DNA of 64,000 nt, from contig NZ_JAJAPX010000003.1 of NCBI RefSeq assembly GCF_020523965.1, positions 372,001 through 436,000 of the forward strand, in the 5' to 3' direction. Within the stretch, counting starts at the first letter, position 1. The number at the start of each line of letters is the position of its first letter. This document shows positions 3,451 to 23,794 of the stretch, piece by piece. A model generated the notes under the pieces. That model did no database searches. It saw only the letters and a program-made list of their open reading frames with translations, and was not told the DNA's origin. Source of the stretch: Neotamlana sargassicola (lineage in GTDB: Bacteria; Bacteroidota; Bacteroidia; Flavobacteriales; Flavobacteriaceae). The position numbers and the translations under genes are program-made.

Positions 3451-3566
3451 GGGCGTTACCCCGAAGCTTCGGGGTCGGGCTTTACACTATATCTTTTTTT
3501 ATGCCTACCCTTTCGCTGCGCTCAAGGAGACATAAAAAAAGGATGCCGTTTCAATCCCTAACGCGC
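3451..3566. repeat. REP-like palindromic intergenic element (family A)
   Basis: The gap between the LeuA-type gene and leuB holds a structured, GC-richer element. The 18-base ACCCCGAAGCTTCGGGGT at 3458-3475 is a perfect palindrome. TTTTTTTATG at 3494-3503 pairs with CATAAAAAAA at 3531-3540. GCGTTA at 3453-3458 pairs with TAACGC at 3559-3564 at the outer ends. From memory, similar motifs (GGGCGTTACC..., ...AATCCCTAACGCG) recur between genes in Flavobacteriaceae genomes. Function is unknown; in a transcript it would fold and could tune leuB expression or RNA stability. Confidence 0.65.
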
Positions 3567-3587
3567 TGTATTACTAACAATAAACAT

Positions 3588-15063: not shown

Positions 15064-15657
15064 TTATTTATGTCTGCCTTTTAATTCTGCTTCAATATCC
15101 TTTAAAGTAAATCCTTTTGCTTGAAGTAACATTAAGTAGTGAAATAATAAATCGGCCGATTCGTATAAAAACAACTCATCATTATTATCCATAGCTTCAA
15201 TAACCGTTTCTACAGCTTCTTCCCCTACTTTTTGAGCTACTTTATTAATGCCCTTTGAAAATAAACTCGCCACATACGATTTTGCGGTATCTTTATTAGC
15301 AACACGTTCTGCAATAATAGCTTCCAAGGTTGAAAAGAACCCGTAATTAGGTGTATTATCTTCGCCCCAACAATTTCCTGTTCCTTTATGGCAAGTTGGT
15401 CCAGCAGGATTTACTTGAATTAATAAAGAATCATTATCGCAATCGTTTTTCAGTCCAACCAAGTTTAAAAAGTTACCACTCTCCTCGCCTTTTGTCCATA
15501 AACGTTGTTTACTACGGCTAAAAAATGTCACTTTTTTAGTTTCTATTGTTTTCTTATAAGCTTCTTCATTCATGTAACCCAACATTAATACATTTTTTGT
15601 TGTAGCATCTTGAATAATTGCAGGAACTAAGCCGTTATTATCGTATTTTATTTTCAT
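15064..15657 (-). CDS. hisIE: bifunctional phosphoribosyl-AMP cyclohydrolase / phosphoribosyl-ATP pyrophosphatase
   Basis: This fused enzyme carries out steps 2 and 3 of histidine synthesis. The N-terminal HisI part shows GYMNEEAYKKTI, FFSRSKQRLWTKGEESGN and the metal-binding Cys residues near DCDNDSLL and TCHKGTGNCW. The C-terminal HisE part shows LEAIIAERVAN and KVGEEAVETVIEA. The chosen start gives MKIKYDNNG and 197 residues. A longer frame from 15693 would add 12 residues (MPETYSGLIKKS) that derive from the REP-like repeat upstream, so it is rejected. The gene lies between hisF and truA. Confidence 0.95.
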   Translation of the reverse strand: MKIKYDNNGLVPAIIQDATTKNVLMLGYMNEEAYKKTIETKKVTFFSRSKQRLWTKGEESGNFLNLVGLKNDCDNDSLLIQVNPAGPTCHKGTGNCWGEDNTPNYGFFSTLEAIIAERVANKDTAKSYVASLFSKGINKVAQKVGEEAVETVIEAMDNNDELFLYESADLLFHYLMLLQAKGFTLKDIEAELKGRHK

Positions 15658-15673
15658 TGATTTTTTTATTAAT

Positions 15674-15731
15674 CCTGAATATGTTTCAGGCACTTATTAT
15701 TATGAGATACTGAAACGAGTTCAGTATGACA
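15674..15731. repeat. REP-like hairpins between hisF and hisIE (family C)
   Basis: CCTGAA/TTCAGG form a small hairpin at 15674-15690. ATGAGATACTGAAACGAGTTCAGTATGACA (given here in two overlapping parts: ATGAGATACTGAAACG and GAGTTCAGTATGACA) lies at 15702-15731. The latter matches 20418-20447 except for a paired A-T to G-C change in its stem. Confidence 0.7.
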
Positions 15732-15732
15732 C

Positions 15733-16488
15733 CTAAAGTCGAATCTCAATATTATGTTTTTTTAATTCTTGTTTTAATTCAGGGATAGGTATTTCACCAA
15801 AATGAAAAACACTAGCTGCTAGAGCAGCATCAGATTTTCCTTCCTTAAATGTATCTACAAAATGCTGAACATTACCAGCACCACCAGATGCAATAATAGG
15901 GATATTTAAGGTATCAGACAATTGCGCTAAAGCTTCGTTTGCAAAACCAGCTTTTGTACCATCGTGATCCATTGATGTGAATAAAATTTCGCCCGCACCG
16001 CGAGTTTCAACCTCTTTTGCCCATTCAAATAAATCGATTTCTGTTGGAATAGTTCCACCAGCTAAATGTACTTTCCAATGTCCATCAACTTGTTTCGCAT
16101 CAATAGCAACTACAACACATTGGCTACCAAATTTATTAGCTAATTCGTTTACCAAATCTGGTCTTTTTACTGCAGATGAGTTGATAGAAACCTTATCGGC
16201 ACCACATTTTAACAAAGCATCAACGTGTTCTACAGACGAAATGCCACCGCCAACAGTAAACGGTATATTAACTTGTTCGGCAACACGAGTTACCATATCT
16301 AGAGTCGTGCCTCGATTTTCTAAAGTGGCTGCGATGTCTAAAAACACCAATTCGTCTGCACCTACTTCGGCATATTGCTTAGCGAGCTCTACAGGGTCTC
16401 CGGCATCACGTAAATCGACGAAATTAACACCTTTTACGGTGCGTCCGTTTTTTATATCTAGACAGGGAACAATTCTTTTTGTTAGCAT
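15733..16488 (-). CDS. hisF: imidazole glycerol phosphate synthase, cyclase subunit
   Basis: HisF is the TIM-barrel cyclase that joins ammonia from HisH to PRFAR, giving IGP and AICAR. It has 251 residues, as usual. Signatures are [19 protein letters not shown] (catalytic Asp near the N terminus), [26 protein letters not shown], and the second-half Asp in [13 protein letters not shown]. It follows hisA on the same strand, separated by a heptamer repeat and a REP-like element. Confidence 0.97.
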
Positions 16489-16496
16489 TATTGTAT

Positions 16497-16537
16497 TTGG
16501 TTGTTGGTTGTTGGTTGTTGGTTGTTGGTTGTTGGTT
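16497..16537. repeat. heptanucleotide microsatellite upstream of hisF
   Basis: Five perfect copies of TTGTTGG run from 16501 to 16535, with a half copy (TTGG) before them. The array begins 9 bases upstream of the hisF start codon. A degenerate relative occurs at about 18061-18088, just upstream of hisH. Copy number is likely to vary by slippage. Confidence 0.9.
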
Positions 16538-16593
16538 AAAAAAAACTAATAACTAGCAACCATCAACTGTTAACTATATAATTTCCAATTTCT

Positions 16594-16687
16594 CGTCAGT
16601 TGGAGTGATGCGATTTTATGAGCATTGTATCGAGAACTAAAGTTTCTCGATGCCATTTTTCATGCCTCAAAATCACTCGAAGTGACG
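16594..16687. repeat. REP-like long hairpin (family B) abutting the hisA stop
   Basis: CGTCAGTTGGAGTGAT...TTGTATCGAGAACT and TTTCTCGATGCC...ATCACTCGAAGTGACG form two arms of about 45 bases around a 4-base centre. The arms carry the same words (TTCGAGTGA, TATCGAGAA) as the tandem array at 13593-14274, so this is a single copy of that family. It ends at the base before the hisA stop codon. Confidence 0.85.
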
Positions 16688-17443
16688 TTATTTATTTATT
16701 ATAAAATTTTCTAGTTGTTTCAAACTTATTTTATTCTCGTAAATGGCTTTTCCTATTATGGTGCCTTCGCAACCAATTTCGGCTAATTTTGGTAATTCAT
16801 CAAATTTCGAAATACCTCCAGAGGCGATTAACTTTAAAGTTGATTCGTTTTCACTTTGACTGGGCTTTGTGTTACATTCAGCAATCATTTTCTTATACAA
16901 ATCGAATGAAGGGCCTTGTAACATGCCATCCTTAGCTATATCGGTACAAATTACATAGCTAACACCTTTAGTCATATAATTCTGCACAAACGGAATGAGC
17001 TCTTCATCACTTTCTTCTAACCAACCGCTAATGGCTATTTTCTCATTATTTGCATCGGCACCTAAAATTATTTTATCACTACCGTATTTGGTTAGCCAAC
17101 TTTCAAAAACTTCTGGTTTTTTAACAGCAATACTTCCACCGGTAATTTGTTTTGCACCAGATTCAAATGCAATGTGTAAATCTTCATCAGTTTTTAAACC
17201 ACCACCAAAATCTATCTTTAAATTGGTTTTAGTCGCAATAGTTTCTAACACTTTATGGTTTACAATATGGCTTGCCTTGGCACCATCTAAATCTACTAAA
17301 TGCAAATGCTCTATACCATGAGCTTCGTATTGCTTCGCAATTTCTAATGGGTTTTCGTTATATACTTTTTTTGTGTTGTAATCACCTTTTGATAATCTTA
17401 CACATTTACCGTCTATTATGTCTATTGCTGGTATTATTCTCAA
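16688..17443 (-). CDS. hisA: ProFAR isomerase
   Basis: HisA is the TIM-barrel isomerase that opens the ribose of ProFAR to give PRFAR. It has 251 residues and is a homolog of HisF. Signatures are [21 protein letters not shown] with the catalytic Asp, [17 protein letters not shown], and the C-terminal half [16 protein letters not shown] with the second Asp. The gene follows hisH by 15 bases and is flanked downstream by the family B hairpin. Confidence 0.97.
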
Positions 17444-17458
17444 AATAGTTGTTAGTTT

Positions 17459-18052
17459 CTAGTTGTTAGTATTTAATTCTAAAAAATTCTTAAGAATTTT
17501 TTCGCCTTCTTTTCCGCTTTTTTCAGGGTGAAATTGCACGCCATAAAAATTTTCGTGTTGTAATGCCGATGCGTAATTAATCTCGTAATCGGTAGCAGCA
17601 ATAGTTTCATTACAATGTTCGGCATAAAAACTATGCACTAAATACATGTATTCGTTTTCTTTGATGCCTTTAAATAAATCGGATTTTAAATCTTTTATAA
17701 CATTCCAACCCATTTGCGGTACTTTTACGCTATTTGAAAAACGCTTTACTTTTGTTTGAAAAATCCCCAAGCCCTCTGTATTACCTTCTTCGGAGTGTAA
17801 ACACATGAGTTGCATACCTAAACAAATGCCCAAAACAGGTTGTTTTAAATTAGGAATTAAGGTATCCAAACCACTTTTTTTAAGCATTTTCATAGCGGAA
17901 CTAGCTTCGCCTACTCCTGGGAAAATGACTTTATCGGCCGCTTTTATTTCTTCAGCATTATTCGATAAAACAGCATCGACACCTAAGCGTTTAAAAGCAA
18001 ATTGTATACTTTTTATATTTCCTGCACCGTAATCTATTATTACTAATTTCAT
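17459..18052 (-). CDS. hisH: imidazole glycerol phosphate synthase, glutaminase subunit
   Basis: HisH is the class I glutamine amidotransferase that supplies ammonia to HisF. The nucleophile is Cys77 in GICLGMQLM, and the His and Glu of the triad are in VQFHPEKSG. The chosen start gives MKLVIIDYGAGN and 197 residues. A longer frame from 18100 reads through the degenerate TTGTTGG-type repeat (ISLTNNQRRTTNNK) and is unlikely. It follows hisB and precedes hisA. Confidence 0.96.
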   Translation of the reverse strand: MKLVIIDYGAGNIKSIQFAFKRLGVDAVLSNNAEEIKAADKVIFPGVGEASSAMKMLKKSGLDTLIPNLKQPVLGICLGMQLMCLHSEEGNTEGLGIFQTKVKRFSNSVKVPQMGWNVIKDLKSDLFKGIKENEYMYLVHSFYAEHCNETIAATDYEINYASALQHENFYGVQFHPEKSGKEGEKILKNFLELNTNN

Positions 18053-18130
18053 TATTTTGTTGTTGGTTGTTCGTCGTTGGTTGTTGGTCAATGAAATCAA
18101 TTAACCAATAACTAGCAACAAACAACTAGT

Positions 18131-19273
18131 TTACAATAACCCTTTTGTACTTGGTAAAAACATTTTATTGGCATCACGTTTTACGGCCATTTTCATGGCT
18201 TTTGCAAATGCTTTAAAAATGCCTTCAATTTTATGATGCTCGTTTACACCTTCTGCTTTTACATTTAAATTACATTTTGCGCCATCGGTAAACGATTTAA
18301 ATAAATGATAAAACATTTCGGTTGGCATATCGCCTATTTTTTCGCGTTTAAATTCGGCATCCCATTCTAACCAATTTCTACCTCCAAAATCTACCGCTAC
18401 TTGTGCTAAACAATCATCCATTGGCAAGCAAAAACCGTAGCGCTCTATACCTAATTTATTACCTAAAGCTTTATTGAATAATTCACCAAGCGCAATCATA
18501 GTATCTTCAATGGTATGGTGTTCGTCTACTTCTAAATCGCCATTTACTTTTATGGTTAAATCCATAGCACCATGACGCCCAATTTGGTCTAACATATGAT
18601 CGAAAAACGATAAACCTGTATCAATATCGTTTTTACCCGAACCATCAAGATTTAATTTGATGTAAATTTGAGTTTCATTGGTGTTACGTGTAATTTCTGA
18701 AACTCTGTCTTTTAACTTTAAAAACTCATAGATTTCTTTCCAATCGGTACTCGTTAAAGCAATACAATCTAAAATATCTTGTTTAGAAGACTCTATTTCA
18801 TCGGCTCCTAATTCGGGATCTTCAGACAAATAAATACCCTTTGCGCCAAGGTTTTTAGCAAGTTCCATATCGGTAATTCTATCACCTAAAACAAAAGAGT
18901 TTTTTAAATCGTAATCTTCAGAAAAATACTTGGTTAATAAGCCTGTTCTAGGCTTACGCGTATCTGCATTTTCATGCGGAAAGGTTTTATCTATATGAAT
19001 TTCAGCAAACTCTACACCTTCCTTTTTAAAGGCATCAATAATTTTATTTTGCGGTGGCCAAAAGGTGTCTTCAGGAAACGAATCGGTTCCTAAGCCATCT
19101 TGATTAGTAACCATTACCAACTCAAAATCTAATTCGCTAGCAATTTTAGCCATGTATTGAAACACTTTTGGGTAAAATTCTAGTTTTTCAAGACTGTCTA
19201 ATTGATAATCTACTGGCGGTTCTAGCACCAATGTGCCGTCTCTATCTATAAATAGTACTTTTGTTTTGCTCAT
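18131..19273 (-). CDS. hisB: bifunctional histidinol-phosphatase / imidazoleglycerol-phosphate dehydratase
   Basis: This fused enzyme runs steps 6 and 8 of histidine synthesis. The N-terminal HAD phosphatase domain (residues 1 to about 165) shows [13 protein letters not shown] with the nucleophilic Asp, and [17 protein letters not shown]. The C-terminal IGPD domain shows the two metal-binding HHxxE motifs DEHHTIEDT and [13 protein letters not shown]. Its 380 residues fit the fused form known in gamma-proteobacteria and Bacteroidota. It starts 1 base after the hisC stop, so the two are probably coupled. Confidence 0.97.
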
Positions 19274-19274
19274 G

Positions 19275-20321
19275 TTAGTCTAATTCTTTTAATGCCTTAA
19301 TTAAAACTTCATTTTCAGCGTCGATTCCTACGGTAAAACGCAACGTGTTTTCACAAAGTGGTTGTGTGGTGCGATTTCTAATAACAATGCCTTTTTCTAG
19401 TAGCTGATTGTAGCGTTTTGTAGCATCATCAACTCGTGCAAGCACAAAATTAGCTTCCGTAGGGAAAATAGTTTCTACAAAACTGATATTTTTTAATGCC
19501 TCAATTAAAATTTGACGTTCTTTTAAAACCGCATTTACTTCGTTTGTAACCGCTTCTAAATTTGAAACACGTTCTAGCGCTCGTTTTTGTGTTAATTCGT
19601 TAACATTATATGGCGGTTTAATTTTGTTTAAAATTGAAATAATTTCCGCGGAAGCGTAACACAATCCTAAACGAATTCCTGCTAAGCCATAAGCTTTAGA
19701 TAGTGTTTGCGTAACAATTAAATTAGGATAATTATTTAATTCTGAAATCCAACTTTGTTGATTTGAAAAATCGATATAAGCTTCATCAATCACCACTAAG
19801 CCACTAAAATTATCAAGTAATGTTTTTATTTTTCCTGAAGCTATTAAATTACCAGTTGGGTTATTTGGCGAACAAATAAATAGCATTTTTGAATTGGCGT
19901 CAATAGCTTCTAAAATGGCTTCAACATTGGGCTGAAAATCTGAGTTTAACTCAACTTTTCGCTCTTCAATCTCGTTTAAATTAGATAAAACAGTGTACAT
20001 GCCATAAGTTGGTGGCAGTGTAATGATGTTGTCTTTTTTAGGTTCGCAAAAGGCTCTAAATAATAAATCTAGCACTTCGTCGCTACCGTTACCTAACAAA
20101 ATCTGATTTGGAGAAACGTTTTTCTGTTCTGCTAAAACAGCTTTTAACGAACGCTGTAACGGATCTGGATAACGATTTACACCATTTTCGAACGGATTTT
20201 CGTTGGCATCTAAAAAAATCATTTTAGACCCATCGGAAACATATTCGTCGCGAGCAGAACTGTAGGCTTTCATTGCTTTTACGTTCTCTCGAATTATATT
20301 TTGTAAATTAAAGTTATTCAT
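19275..20321 (-). CDS. hisC: histidinol-phosphate aminotransferase
   Basis: HisC is a PLP-dependent class I/II aminotransferase that makes histidinol phosphate. It has 348 residues. The PLP lysine lies in [24 protein letters not shown] supplies the PLP-binding Asp, and the early motifs [18 protein letters not shown] and [14 protein letters not shown] are typical. A family of REP-like palindromes lies between it and hisD. Confidence 0.97.
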
Positions 20322-20352
20322 TTTATTAATTCTGAATGGTCACGCTTAACAC

Positions 20353-20447
20353 CGTCGAAGTGTTTTCTAAAAGGCTTCGACTGCGCTCAGCCTGACATAA
20401 CGATACTTCTTTATGTTATGAGATGCTGAAACGAGTTCAGCATGACA
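20353..20447. repeat. REP-like palindrome cluster between hisD and hisC (families C and D)
   Basis: GTCGAAG (20353 on) pairs with CTTCGAC about 20 bases later. This second arm is part of CTTCGACTGCGCTCAGCCTGACA, a word I recall as widespread in Flavobacteriaceae (read here as CTTCGACTGCGC then GCTCAGCCTGACA). ATAAC and GTTAT pair further on. GCTGAA/TTCAGC form the stem of the 20418-20447 copy of family C. Confidence 0.75.
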
Positions 20448-20455
20448 AAACAATT

Positions 20456-21739
20456 TTATTTTAAATCTTTTAAACGGATACTAACCGCATTTTTATGCGC
20501 TTGTAAACCTTCTGCTTCGGCCATTAATTCAATAGTTTCTCCAATATTTAAAATACCTTCTTTTGATATTTTTTGAAACGTCATGCTCTTCATAAAACTA
20601 TCTAAATTCACACCCGAATATGCTTTACTAAATCCGTTTGTTGGCAACGTATGGTTAGTTCCAGATGCATAATCGCCTGCGCTTTCTGGTGTATAATCAC
20701 CTATAAAAACCGAACCTGCATTTCTTATGTTTTCAACGTAATAATCTTCATTTTTAGAACAAATTATGAAGTGTTCTGGCCCATATTGATTAATTAAATC
20801 TAACGCTATTTCATCATTTTCAACAAATATAGATTTAGAATTAGCGATGGCTTTTTCGGCTATTTCTTTACGCGGCAACACTTGTAATTGCGCTTCTACT
20901 TCTTCTGAAACCTTAGCTATAAGTTCTTGTGATGTTGCTACTAAAATAACCTGACTATCAGCACCGTGTTCTGCCTGACTTAATAAATCTGATGCAATAT
21001 AGCTTGCATTTGCACCATTATCGGCAACAACTAACAATTCACTTGGACCAGCAGGCATATCGATAGCCACACCGTATTTAGTGGCTAATTGTTTTGCCAC
21101 GGTTACAAATTGGTTGCCAGGACCAAAAATTTTATAAACTTGTGGTATGGTTTCTGTACCAAAAGTTAATGCAGCAATGGCTTGAATACCGCCAACTTTA
21201 AATATTTTAGTTACGCCACATAGTTTGGCTGCATACAAAATTTCGGGAGCTAATTTACCTTCTTTATTTGGTGGCGAACACAATACAATTTCGTTACAAC
21301 CTGCAATTTTCGCAGGAGCAGCCAGCATTAAAACCGTTGAAAACAAAGGCGCTGTTCCTCCTGGAATATATAAACCAACGCGTTCTATGGCGCGCTTTTC
21401 TTGCCAGCATTGAACACCGTTTGTGGTTTCTAATTCTATTTTTTCTGTTTTTTGAGCCGCATGAAATGCTTCAATATTATTTTTAGCATTTGCAATTGCA
21501 GTTTTTAAAGCTTCAGGAATGCTTTTAACGGCTTCTTCAATTTCTTCGGAAGACACTAAATTGCTTTCCAAGGTTACCTTATCGAAACGTTCTGTATATG
21601 TTTTTATAGCACTGTCGCCATTAGTCTTAACATCGTTAAACACCTCGCTTACAATACCTTCAATATCATCGACGGTTTGTGTTGGGCGTTTTAAAATATC
21701 GGCCCATGTGTTTTTATCTGGATTGTTAATTATTTGCAT
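20456..21739 (-). CDS. hisD: histidinol dehydrogenase
   Basis: HisD is the zinc- and NAD-dependent enzyme that oxidises histidinol to histidine in the last two steps. It has 427 residues, as usual. Signatures are IFGPGNQFVTVAKQL, DMPAGPSELLVVAD, the zinc/catalytic region LLSQAEHGADSQVIL, and the C-terminal GTNHTLPTNGFSKAYSGV. It follows hisG after a 99-base gap that contains two small palindromes. Confidence 0.97.
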   Translation of the reverse strand: MQIINNPDKNTWADILKRPTQTVDDIEGIVSEVFNDVKTNGDSAIKTYTERFDKVTLESNLVSSEEIEEAVKSIPEALKTAIANAKNNIEAFHAAQKTEKIELETTNGVQCWQEKRAIERVGLYIPGGTAPLFSTVLMLAAPAKIAGCNEIVLCSPPNKEGKLAPEILYAAKLCGVTKIFKVGGIQAIAALTFGTETIPQVYKIFGPGNQFVTVAKQLATKYGVAIDMPAGPSELLVVADNGANASYIASDLLSQAEHGADSQVILVATSQELIAKVSEEVEAQLQVLPRKEIAEKAIANSKSIFVENDEIALDLINQYGPEHFIICSKNEDYYVENIRNAGSVFIGDYTPESAGDYASGTNHTLPTNGFSKAYSGVNLDSFMKSMTFQKISKEGILNIGETIELMAEAEGLQAHKNAVSIRLKDLK

Positions 21740-21838: not shown

Positions 21839-22696
21839 TTAAAGTACCATTTTTTCAATTGGGCAAACTAAAATACCTTCGGCACCGTTGGCTTTTAACT
21901 CATCAATAACTTCCCAAAAATCGTTTTTATTAATAACAGAATGTACAGAGCTCCAACCTTCTTGTGCTAAAGGCAACACGGTTGGACTTTTCATTCCTGG
22001 CAATAAACTCACAATTTTATCTAACCTGTCGTTTGGTGCGTTTAATAAAACATATTTAGAGTTTTTTCCTTTTAAAACCGATTTCATTCTAAATAATAAC
22101 TTGTCTAGAATGGCTTGTTTTTCTTCGGTTAATTCTGGAGCCGAAGTTAATACGGCTTCACTTTTAAAAAGTACTTCTACTTCTTTTAAATTGTTTTTAA
22201 AAAGCGTGCTTCCGCTTGAAACAATATCAACAATAGCGTGAGATAACCCAATATTTGGAGCAATTTCTACCGAACCATTAATAACATGAATATCGGCTTT
22301 TTCGCCTTTCTTTTCAAAATACTGATTTACGGTATTGGGGTATGATGTTGCAATTTTTTTACCTCGTAAATCTTCAATAGAATTATATTCTGCATTTTTA
22401 GGTACAGCAATAGATACTTTACATTTTGAAAAGCCCAAACGCTCTACAATTGGTAAATCGTTACCTTTTTCTATTAATGTATTTTCGCCTAAAATGGCAA
22501 TATCTACAACACCATCGCGTAAATACTGCGGAATATCGCCGTTACGTAAATACAAAACTTCCATAGGGAAATTTCTAGCTTCGGCTTTTAATTGGTCTTT
22601 ACCATTATCGATAGAGATGCCACAATTTTTTAGTAAGTCTAACGATTCTTCATTTAATCGTCCTGATTTTTGTACTGCAATTTTTAGTTTACTCAT
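21839..22696 (-). CDS. hisG: ATP phosphoribosyltransferase, long form
   Basis: HisG makes phosphoribosyl-ATP, the committed step of histidine synthesis. At 285 residues this is the long form with its own C-terminal ACT-like regulatory domain, so no HisZ is needed and feedback inhibition by histidine is expected. Signatures are KIAVQKSGRLNEES at the start, IGLSHAIVDIVSSGSTL, and the regulatory-domain stretch GMKSPTVLPLAQEGWSSVHSVI. It is the first structural gene of the his operon, about 110 bases after the His leader peptide. Confidence 0.97.
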   Translation of the reverse strand: MSKLKIAVQKSGRLNEESLDLLKNCGISIDNGKDQLKAEARNFPMEVLYLRNGDIPQYLRDGVVDIAILGENTLIEKGNDLPIVERLGFSKCKVSIAVPKNAEYNSIEDLRGKKIATSYPNTVNQYFEKKGEKADIHVINGSVEIAPNIGLSHAIVDIVSSGSTLFKNNLKEVEVLFKSEAVLTSAPELTEEKQAILDKLLFRMKSVLKGKNSKYVLLNAPNDRLDKIVSLLPGMKSPTVLPLAQEGWSSVHSVINKNDFWEVIDELKANGAEGILVCPIEKMVL

Positions 22697-22747
22697 TGTT
22701 GATTTTTATATGAGTTTGAAACAATCTTGTTGATTTTTTTAAATGAA

Positions 22748-22776
22748 AAACCCGCTTGATTGTCTCAAACGGGTTT
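22748..22776 (-). terminator. his attenuator terminator
   Basis: On the transcribed strand AAACCCGTTTGA pairs with TCAAGCGGGTTT (12 pairs, one G-U) around the loop GACAA, followed by T residues. It lies 52 bases before the hisG start and 31 bases after the leader peptide stop. The leader segment TCTCAAGCG (22813-22821) can instead pair with CGTTTGAGA (22763-22771), which removes most of the terminator's first arm. Confidence 0.85.
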
Positions 22777-22806
22777 AAATATATTTTCATTTTATTCAAT
22801 ACATTT

Positions 22807-22860
22807 TTACTTCGCTTGAGAGCAAATGTAAAAATGATGATGTGTTTGAATAAAAGTCAT
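22807..22860 (-). CDS. hisL: his operon leader peptide (MTFIQTHHHFYICSQAK)
   Basis: This 17-residue frame lies upstream of hisG and contains three consecutive His codons (CAT CAT CAT, 22834-22842) in positions 7 to 9. It begins with ATG 21 bases after the candidate -7 box and ends with TAA just before the attenuator hairpin. By analogy with enterobacterial hisL, ribosome stalling at the His codons would expose TCTCAAGCG for antiterminator pairing. Normal translation to the stop would cover that segment and let the terminator form. The frame is too short to prove by coding statistics; the His run, position and paired structures are the evidence. Confidence 0.82.
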   Translation of the reverse strand: MTFIQTHHHFYICSQAK

Positions 22861-22880
22861 GTCTTTTTGTTTTACTGAAG

Positions 22881-22911
22881 CAAATATCTGTAATAAAAGT
22901 AAATTTTCAAA
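22881..22911 (-). promoter_or_regulatory. candidate his operon promoter
   Basis: On the minus strand TTTG is followed after 19 bases by GATATTTG, one base off TAnnTTTG. The predicted transcript start is about 15 bases before the leader peptide ATG, which suits an attenuator transcript. Confidence 0.55.
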
Positions 22912-22934
22912 CTTTAATTTACAAATATTAAAAC

Positions 22935-22963
22935 ATTTTACAATTTTTAGGTATTTGTAAAAT
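22935..22963 (-). terminator. terminator-like hairpin after the prohibitin gene
   Basis: ATTTTACAA and TTGTAAAAT form a perfect 9-base stem around an 11-base loop, 16 bases after the prohibitin stop. It ends that unit before the his promoter. The T-run is short. Confidence 0.5.
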
Positions 22964-22978
22964 ATTTATCGTGAATGT

Positions 22979-23794
22979 TTATTGATTTCCTAGAATAATT
23001 GGCATTCCACTATCTCCCGAACCTATAACAATAACTTTACTATTTGGTGATTCAGATAATTTTATGGTTGCCTCGATACCTTTATCCTGTAAAATTTTAT
23101 CGGTTAACGATGCACTTAAAATTTTATTAGCTTCAGCTTTACCTTCGGCTTCAATAATTTGTTTTTCAGCTTCTTTTTCTGCAGTTACAAGTCTAAACTC
23201 ATACTCTAACGACTCTTGTTCTTGCTTTAATTTACGCTCAATTGCCTCTTTTATAGTTGATGGCAACGTTACATCGCGAACTAAAAACTCATTTAACTTA
23301 ATATATTGTTTTTCTAGAATTTTTTTAGTCTCTACAAAAATTTCATCTTGTATAGCATCACGCTTACTAGAATATAATTGCTCTGGTGTGTAACGACCTA
23401 CAACACTACGAGCGGCACTTCTAATAGCAGGTTGAATTACACGCTGCAAATAGTTTTCGCCTAAAGTTTGGTGTAGTTTTCCTAAATCTTGAAATACAGG
23501 TTGAAACCAAGCAGAACCATCAATTTGAATTTCTAACCCGTTTGAAGATAGTACTTTCATTTTTTCAAATAATTCTTGTTGACGCACTTCGTAAACAATA
23601 ACTTTATTCCAAGGTGCTACTATGTGAAAACCTTCGCCTAAAGGAGGCTGATCGGTTACCACTCCATTATCAAAAGTTTTGTACAAAACTCCAGCTTCAC
23701 CGGAACCTATTGTTACTGCCGATTTGGATAATATTATAATTAAAACCACAATTGAAATAATTGCAGGAAATGCTATTTTAGGTAATTTGTCCAT
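22979..23794 (-). CDS. prohibitin-type SPFH membrane protein
   Basis: This 271-residue protein has an N-terminal membrane anchor (about residues 9-24, AIISIVVLIIILS). It is followed by an SPFH/band-7 domain with TIGSGEAGVLYKTF, EGFHIVAPWNKVIVYEVR and VRDVTLPSTIKEAIERK. A Glu/Lys/Ala-rich coiled coil (about 185-240, QEQESLEYEFRLVTAEKEAEKQI) comes next, and a short hydrophobic tail. Such proteins form large rings that organise membranes and modulate AAA proteases such as FtsH. It follows the VWA-type gene by about 20 bases, in an apparent fabG-VWA-prohibitin unit. Confidence 0.93.
   Translation of the reverse strand: MDKLPKIAFPAIISIVVLIIILSKSAVTIGSGEAGVLYKTFDNGVVTDQPPLGEGFHIVAPWNKVIVYEVRQQELFEKMKVLSSNGLEIQIDGSAWFQPVFQDLGKLHQTLGENYLQRVIQPAIRSAARSVVGRYTPEQLYSSKRDAIQDEIFVETKKILEKQYIKLNEFLVRDVTLPSTIKEAIERKLKQEQESLEYEFRLVTAEKEAEKQIIEAEGKAEANKILSASLTDKILQDKGIEATIKLSESPNSKVIVIGSGDSGMPIILGNQ

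Follow-up and report, generated by a model that had tools for sequence, protein, structure and literature searches.

The window (the whole 64,000-nucleotide stretch of DNA analyzed here) carries a his operon on its minus strand, along which promoter-like elements, a 17-codon open reading frame (ORF), and a terminator are followed by hisG-D-C-B-H-A-F-IE. The first gene of the operon, hisG, lies at positions 21839 to 22696 (NCBIfam TIGR00070), and hisD, hisC, hisB, hisH, hisA, hisF, and hisIE occupy positions 15064 to 21739 (NCBIfam and the ORF list). The window's genome is closely related to Tamlana laminarinivorans (HisG 99%).

The leader peptide ORF (22807 to 22860, minus strand) was read from the sequence and is kept in relatives. 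It encodes MTFIQTHHHFYICSQAK, ends at a TAA stop codon (22809-22807), and contains three CAT (His) codons at 22842-22834. An earlier, sequence-only reading of this DNA had described a 17-codon frame with three consecutive CAT codons, and the coordinates that it gave check out. Sequence, folding, and a terminator scan each placed an intrinsic terminator at 22746 to 22776 (minus strand), with 12 pairs between arms 22776-22765 (segment 3) and 22759-22748 (segment 4), a GACAA loop (22764-22760), and a T-run (22750-22746). The scan of 22650-23000 returned exactly this hairpin (mean for shuffles, 0.0), the same 12-pair stem with GACAA loop and T-run that had been proposed from the sequence. The leader fold lay 7 standard deviations below its own shuffles (z = -6.96, 0/200).

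Segment 2, the antiterminator strand (TCTCAAGCG, 22813 to 22821, minus strand), can pair with segment 3 (CGTTTGAGA, 22763 to 22771, minus strand), which as paired here comprises part of the first terminator arm and of the loop; sequence and folding gave 9 bp with one G-U, as the sequence-only reading had claimed. That reading had called the attenuator complete. Its frame, terminator, and 2:3 pairing stand, but it did not list a 1:2 hairpin (22836-22802, minus strand; minimum free energy and centroid folds), which hides segment 2 without a ribosome, and it overlooked a fifth segment (22726-22714). The 1:2 hairpin completes the classical scheme of 1:2, 2:3, and 3:4 pairings.

Covariance models were also considered. 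The Rfam His_leader family (RF00514) did not appear among the 11 hits that a search of 22600-22990 gave up to E = 10; the best leader model in that region was Trp_leader, at 18.7 bits, below the gathering score of 41. A T-box riboswitch had no match at the gathering score in the window, nor up to E = 10 in 22600-22990. At 3469-3571 on the minus strand, the window holds a Flavo-1 RNA (RF01705; 56 bits, E 1.8e-09), a widespread flavobacterial element.

The promoter-like elements, read from the sequence (22881 to 22911, minus strand), consist of TTTG at 22911-22908 and GATATTTG at 22888-22881. The GATATTTG box has one mismatch to the -7 consensus TAnnTTTG, which occupies positions -12 to -5 according to PMC9723704. 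A strict pattern search of the window did not pick this box and matched instead 33 bases before the ATG. Across 80 leaders, a strict TAnnTTT(G/A) match was found no more than 60 bases from the leader ATG in 51, and in 39 of these 51 the last match ended 6 to 8 bases 5' of the ATG; this spacing was noticed in relatives from the Maribacter/Allomuricauda group. Since the box is located at -12 to -5 (PMC9723704, in part), those 39 leader ORFs would begin no more than a few bases from the transcript start, and translation of the leader ORF in those relatives may use an almost leaderless transcript. The window is not among the 39; its GATATTTG box would give about 16 bases. The host phylum mostly lacks Shine-Dalgarno sequences, according to PMC9723704.

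Conservation of the leader

The leader was compared in 80 hisG loci from other genomes, which together with the window gave 81 upstream regions. Of the 80 loci, 79 had a small ORF in which His codons stand side by side; the exception was L048, for which just 180 bases of upstream sequence were present. By one fixed rule, a His-rich short ORF was found in 78 of the 81 regions (window included), the misses being L048, L025 (TTG start, HH only), and L071 (YHH), and HHH was present in 76 of the 81. Shuffled copies passed the His-ORF rule at 2.1% and the HHH rule at 0.1%, and control regions upstream of pheA and ilvD passed in 1 of 60 cases, with HHH in 0 of 60. The comparison of Flavobacteriaceae hisG upstream regions that the sequence-only reading had called for thus returned an HHH frame and a terminator in nearly all relatives. 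In Maribacter L030 and L042, a stop replaces the leader Gln codon and makes the peptide 3 residues shorter, and the surrounding antiterminator bases are largely retained despite the new stop.

A simpler account is that the hairpin merely terminates an upstream gene and that the His frame arose by chance. An upstream ORF (22979-23794) is indeed co-directional with the leader; however, 78 of the 81 regions but only 1 of 60 controls have a His frame, and promoter-like elements separate the upstream gene from the leader, which leaves this account with almost no credibility.

Broader samples were also read. In a class-level sample, HisG was found in 56 of 119 genomes, the window's own included, and the other 55 upstream regions were all taken. 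A His ORF was present in 47 of the 55 and HHH in 36, and 42 had both the ORF and a called hairpin under a lenient rule. This class-wide leader set provides comparative material for attenuation outside the Proteobacteria. In an order-level sample, HisG was found in 47 of 79 genomes; 26 loci yielded 25 new regions (the orientation of L233 could not be established), and 18 match rows without a locus were left out. A His ORF was present in 24 of the 25, some of which may come from species already among the 80.

Ribosome-dependent switching in silico

Switching was examined by folding the transcript as it stands before segment 4 exists, with ribosome positions as constraints. In the window, the probability of the 2:3 pairing was 0.13 in free RNA and rose to 0.996 when a ribosome occupied the first His codon; a ribosome at the stop codon gave 0, a value forced by the constraint. 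Mean values for 80 leaders, window included, were 0.60 (free), 0.91 (stalled), and 0.00 (at the stop), and the stalled probability exceeded 0.5 in 80 of 80. The free-RNA mean of 0.60 indicates that protection by the 1:2 hairpin is unequal among relatives. Equilibrium folding of the whole leader or of longer RNA was dropped as a switch test; it gave 3:4 in every ribosome state, which implies that switching depends on which segments are made first, as it does in known attenuators. In the distant relatives L090 and L230, segments 2, 3, 4, and 5 change together.

Several features expected of a leader-peptide attenuator were found at this locus: a small ORF in which codons for the amino acid made by the operon follow one another; an intrinsic terminator between the leader and the first gene; an antiterminator that depends on ribosome position, in silico only; and, downstream, the genes for making that amino acid (hisG, D, C, B, H, A, F, IE). 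Under a shortage of histidyl-tRNA, the ribosome on the leader would stall at the CAT codons. Segment 2 could then pair with segment 3 ahead of the synthesis of segment 4, and RNA polymerase would pass the terminator. With ample histidine, the ribosome would reach the stop codon and cover segment 2, and 3:4 would terminate transcription. The recurrence of the frame and terminator and the co-changing segments make translation-dependent his attenuation the best reading, and the attenuator is supported by sequence, folding, and comparison. The proposal in the sequence-only reading that his leader-peptide attenuation logic works at this locus is supported by this recurrence and by the joint segment changes in L090 and L230.

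A fifth segment before hisG

The fifth segment (GATTGTTTCAAAC, 22714 to 22726, minus strand) was delineated by duplex energy and covariation. It lies 17 bases 5' of hisG and is complementary to 22770-22758 (GTTTGAGACAATC), so that its 13 pairs involve the first arm of the terminator, the loop, and the start of the second arm. With a duplex energy of -9 kcal/mol or better as the threshold for presence, 67 of the 80 leaders, the window among them, have the 3:5 duplex, and in 53 of the 67 the last paired base was 14 to 17 bases before the hisG ATG. The segment was below threshold in 13 of the 80, including the close relative L003 (Tamlana nanhaiensis). In 77 leaders, the mean duplex energy was -13.4, versus -5.3 with shuffled downstream sequence, and p was below 0.01 in 58. 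When partners were exchanged within a set of 59 unique combinations, drawn from the 67 leaders above threshold, the pairing weakened from -14.6 to -10.1, and for the loop part alone it weakened from -6.0 to -3.1; in each case, 0 of 2,000 permutations reached the observed value.

Covariation was scored on five-base-loop loci only (32 of 80, giving 26 unique rows); the 46 four-base-loop loci were counted separately, and the longer-loop loci L021 and L038 were skipped. The covariation score was 0.452, versus 0.211 for shuffles (0/500) and 0.05 to 0.12 for slid partners. In the 26 unique rows, 89.6% of cells paired, versus 75.9% in shuffles and 26 to 50% with slid partners, and 45 cells were changed on both sides, versus 17.3; all pair counts are favored by a register picked for best pairing, and the shuffle controls are inflated by kinship among the sequences. 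Two of the five covariation measures were weak: pairs with changes on both sides numbered 5 versus 4.7 (360/500), and further pair types numbered 21 versus 17.6 (18/500). Parsimony on a HisG tree of the 32 loci, applied to the five loop columns, gave 27 double compensatory changes, 8 one-sided changes, and 13 losses. Because it split the loop region, a 54-locus MAFFT alignment played no part in the counts; six loci (L003, L011, L014, L047, L059, and L073) were outside that alignment by choice or threshold. Taken together, the comparisons support the conclusion that segment 3 and the terminator loop are kept complementary to segment 5.

The distribution of the fifth segment was determined next to that of the leader. 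Among order-level regions, 19 of 25 had it (energy of -9 or better, p of 0.015 or less), and it is present in L224 and L230 despite quite different terminator sequences. In the class sample, in which 8 regions had no called hairpin and L093, at a contig edge, was mis-cut, it was clear in 5 of 55 regions: L082, L084, and L091 from the order and L090 and L108 from other orders. A few other regions had weak values, among them L129 (-11.5, p 0.03), L114 (-9.6, p 0.02), and L113 (-9.3, p 0.035). Besides the segment, L090 and L108 share a flavobacterial-type leader (ending in QAC and QASWK), a likeness that could reflect passage of the his operon from one order to another or an earlier common origin.

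Other leaders were tested with 100 shuffles per locus. No convincing segment 5 was found in pheA leaders of the family (30 loci, 22 with enough posthairpin sequence; lowest p, 0.04) or in ilvD leaders (30 loci, 26 with a called hairpin), where the single p of 0.00, at L178, came from a hairpin unlike a terminator. In the E. coli his leader (L234), segment 5 was absent by the same test (energy of -8.8, p 0.26 of 500). The window genome has its own leaders of these kinds: a Phe-rich ORF (MTVHYTYFINFFYFFFSGRNEALYV, then a stop) with a terminator at pheA (L153) and an Ile/Leu/Val-rich ORF (MRKNLLNIVLVIVVVIFSQ, then a stop) with a terminator at ilvD (L195). Across the family, 26 of the 30 pheA loci showed a Phe-rich leader with a hairpin. 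Segment 5 thus seems to be specific to his and to have been added, mainly in Flavobacteriales, to a class-wide attenuator.

The fifth segment might nevertheless be a functionless resemblance, due to chance or inheritance. Its absence from 13 of 80 leaders and the inflation of shuffle controls by related sequences speak for this view, which we regard as very improbable given 27 double compensatory branches on the HisG tree, the presence of the segment in L224 and L230, whose terminator sequences are unrelated, and the lack of a convincing case in pheA and ilvD leaders or E. coli his. Leaving aside the direction of its effect, it is likely that the locus combines a ribosome-mediated his attenuator with a functional 3:5 pairing. 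The retention of segment 5 through many compensatory changes, even where the terminator differs, points to a job for the attenuator RNA after termination has been decided.

Possible roles of the 3:5 pairing

Segment 5 is transcribed after the terminator and can thus take no part in the termination decision. Once the terminator has been passed, segment 5 would emerge, start pairing on the loop bases left free by 2:3, and displace segment 2, forming 3:5. This pairing would stop the terminator hairpin 3:4 from forming again in the mRNA and would leave the hisG start more open, so that antitermination would thereby be carried into translation. We propose tentatively, and with somewhat less than even confidence, that 3:5 holds the antiterminated mRNA open for hisG translation in this manner.

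The layout of 3:5, which covers the span of segment 2 plus the loop, is suited to displacement of segment 2, and 3:5 extends at least 3 bases beyond the edge of 2:3 in 59 of 67 leaders. With 3:5 rather than 3:4 enforced, the modeled hisG start (-13 to +12) was more open in 54 of 67 and less open in 6, although this may be a trivial result of tying up segment 5. At equilibrium, 3:4 dominated (mean probability, 0.87 to 0.93) and 3:5 was rare (0.05 to 0.07), and with pairs enforced, 3:5 was lower in ensemble energy than 3:4 in only 10 of 67. By duplex energy, 3:5 beat 2:3 in only 36 of 80 leaders (means, -13.1 versus -14.3), which weakens the displacement step.

The same helix could act in the opposite direction, as a translational off-switch: when the stall is over, a 3:5 hairpin beside the hisG start would lower translation of read-through mRNA. 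The constant position of segment 5, 14 to 17 bases before the ATG in 53 of 67, would suit such a switch, and 2:3 would presumably keep segment 3 from segment 5 during starvation, in keeping with the logic of the operon. However, a free segment 3 should prefer segment 4 to segment 5 at equilibrium, the modeled hisG start is more, not less, open with 3:5 in 54 of 67, and L011, L014, and L073 carry an insert between segment 5 and hisG. We therefore consider an off-switch rather unlikely.

Alternatively, the terminated leader RNA could act in trans, the top of its hairpin binding segment 5 of a full-length his transcript and repressing hisG when histidine is ample. The complement is centered on the terminator loop, the usual entry point for RNA-RNA contacts, in lineages with differing sequences, and trans-acting attenuator RNAs are known (rnTrpL). 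Against this, the same sequence would be available in cis at a far higher local concentration, and the window's genome has no further perfect site; its nine one-mismatch sites are at chance level (11 hits versus 14 in the control). An action in trans is, in our judgment, clearly unlikely. It is also quite improbable that 3:5 acts on RNA polymerase, as a hairpin that makes it pause close to the hisG start, or on mRNA stability, as a shielding hairpin; a helix at a near-constant distance from the ATG would fit either role, but the inserts in L011, L014, and L073 hold segment 5 away from the ATG.

To a reading in two tiers we give close to an even chance. Segment 3 would be contested in turn by segment 2 (antiterminator), segment 4 (terminator), and segment 5 (beside the hisG start), and one stalled ribosome would govern transcription to begin with and, later, how the completed his mRNA is translated or what becomes of it. 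On this reading, segment 5 belongs mainly to Flavobacteriales and, within the set of leaders examined, occurs only at his.

Comparison with known systems

Leader-peptide attenuation is textbook knowledge, and the fifth segment lies outside the textbook scheme. A comparative study of attenuation by Vitreschak and others (2004) reportedly mentions Bacteroidetes/Chlorobi in its abstract. The authors of a 2010 report of a Firmicutes case knew of no earlier demonstration of leader-peptide systems outside Proteobacteria and Actinobacteria (PMC2965389, in part). In Flavobacterium psychrophilum, clues to leader-peptide attenuation precede amino acid operons, and a structured 5' element of hisG, without an Rfam hit, is conserved in other Flavobacteriaceae (PMC9723704, in the portion consulted). 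That element resembles the one described here in gene, family, and suspected leader-peptide attenuation; the sections of the main text consulted mention no segment after the terminator, and the structure itself is given in the supplement (PMC9723704). The attenuator itself is of a known kind, not the first for its phylum, and was already suspected at a flavobacterial hisG (PMC9723704, in part).

No description of a fifth segment was found in the open-access literature searched; the portions of PMC7366714, PMC4833913, PMC8305728, and PMC1262725 consulted do not describe such an element. As far as the open literature searched extends, the fifth segment appears to be new. The enterobacterial his attenuator (hisL of E. 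coli) likewise has a run of His codons in a leader peptide, competing hairpins, and a terminator before hisG, but it differs in sequence and, by the test applied here, is without a fifth segment. A second point of comparison is rnTrpL, an attenuator-derived RNA that acts in trans. It illustrates that the RNA of an attenuator may take on a second job once termination has occurred; it differs in belonging to trp, in another phylum, and in having other mRNAs as targets, whereas here the complement lies within the same leader.
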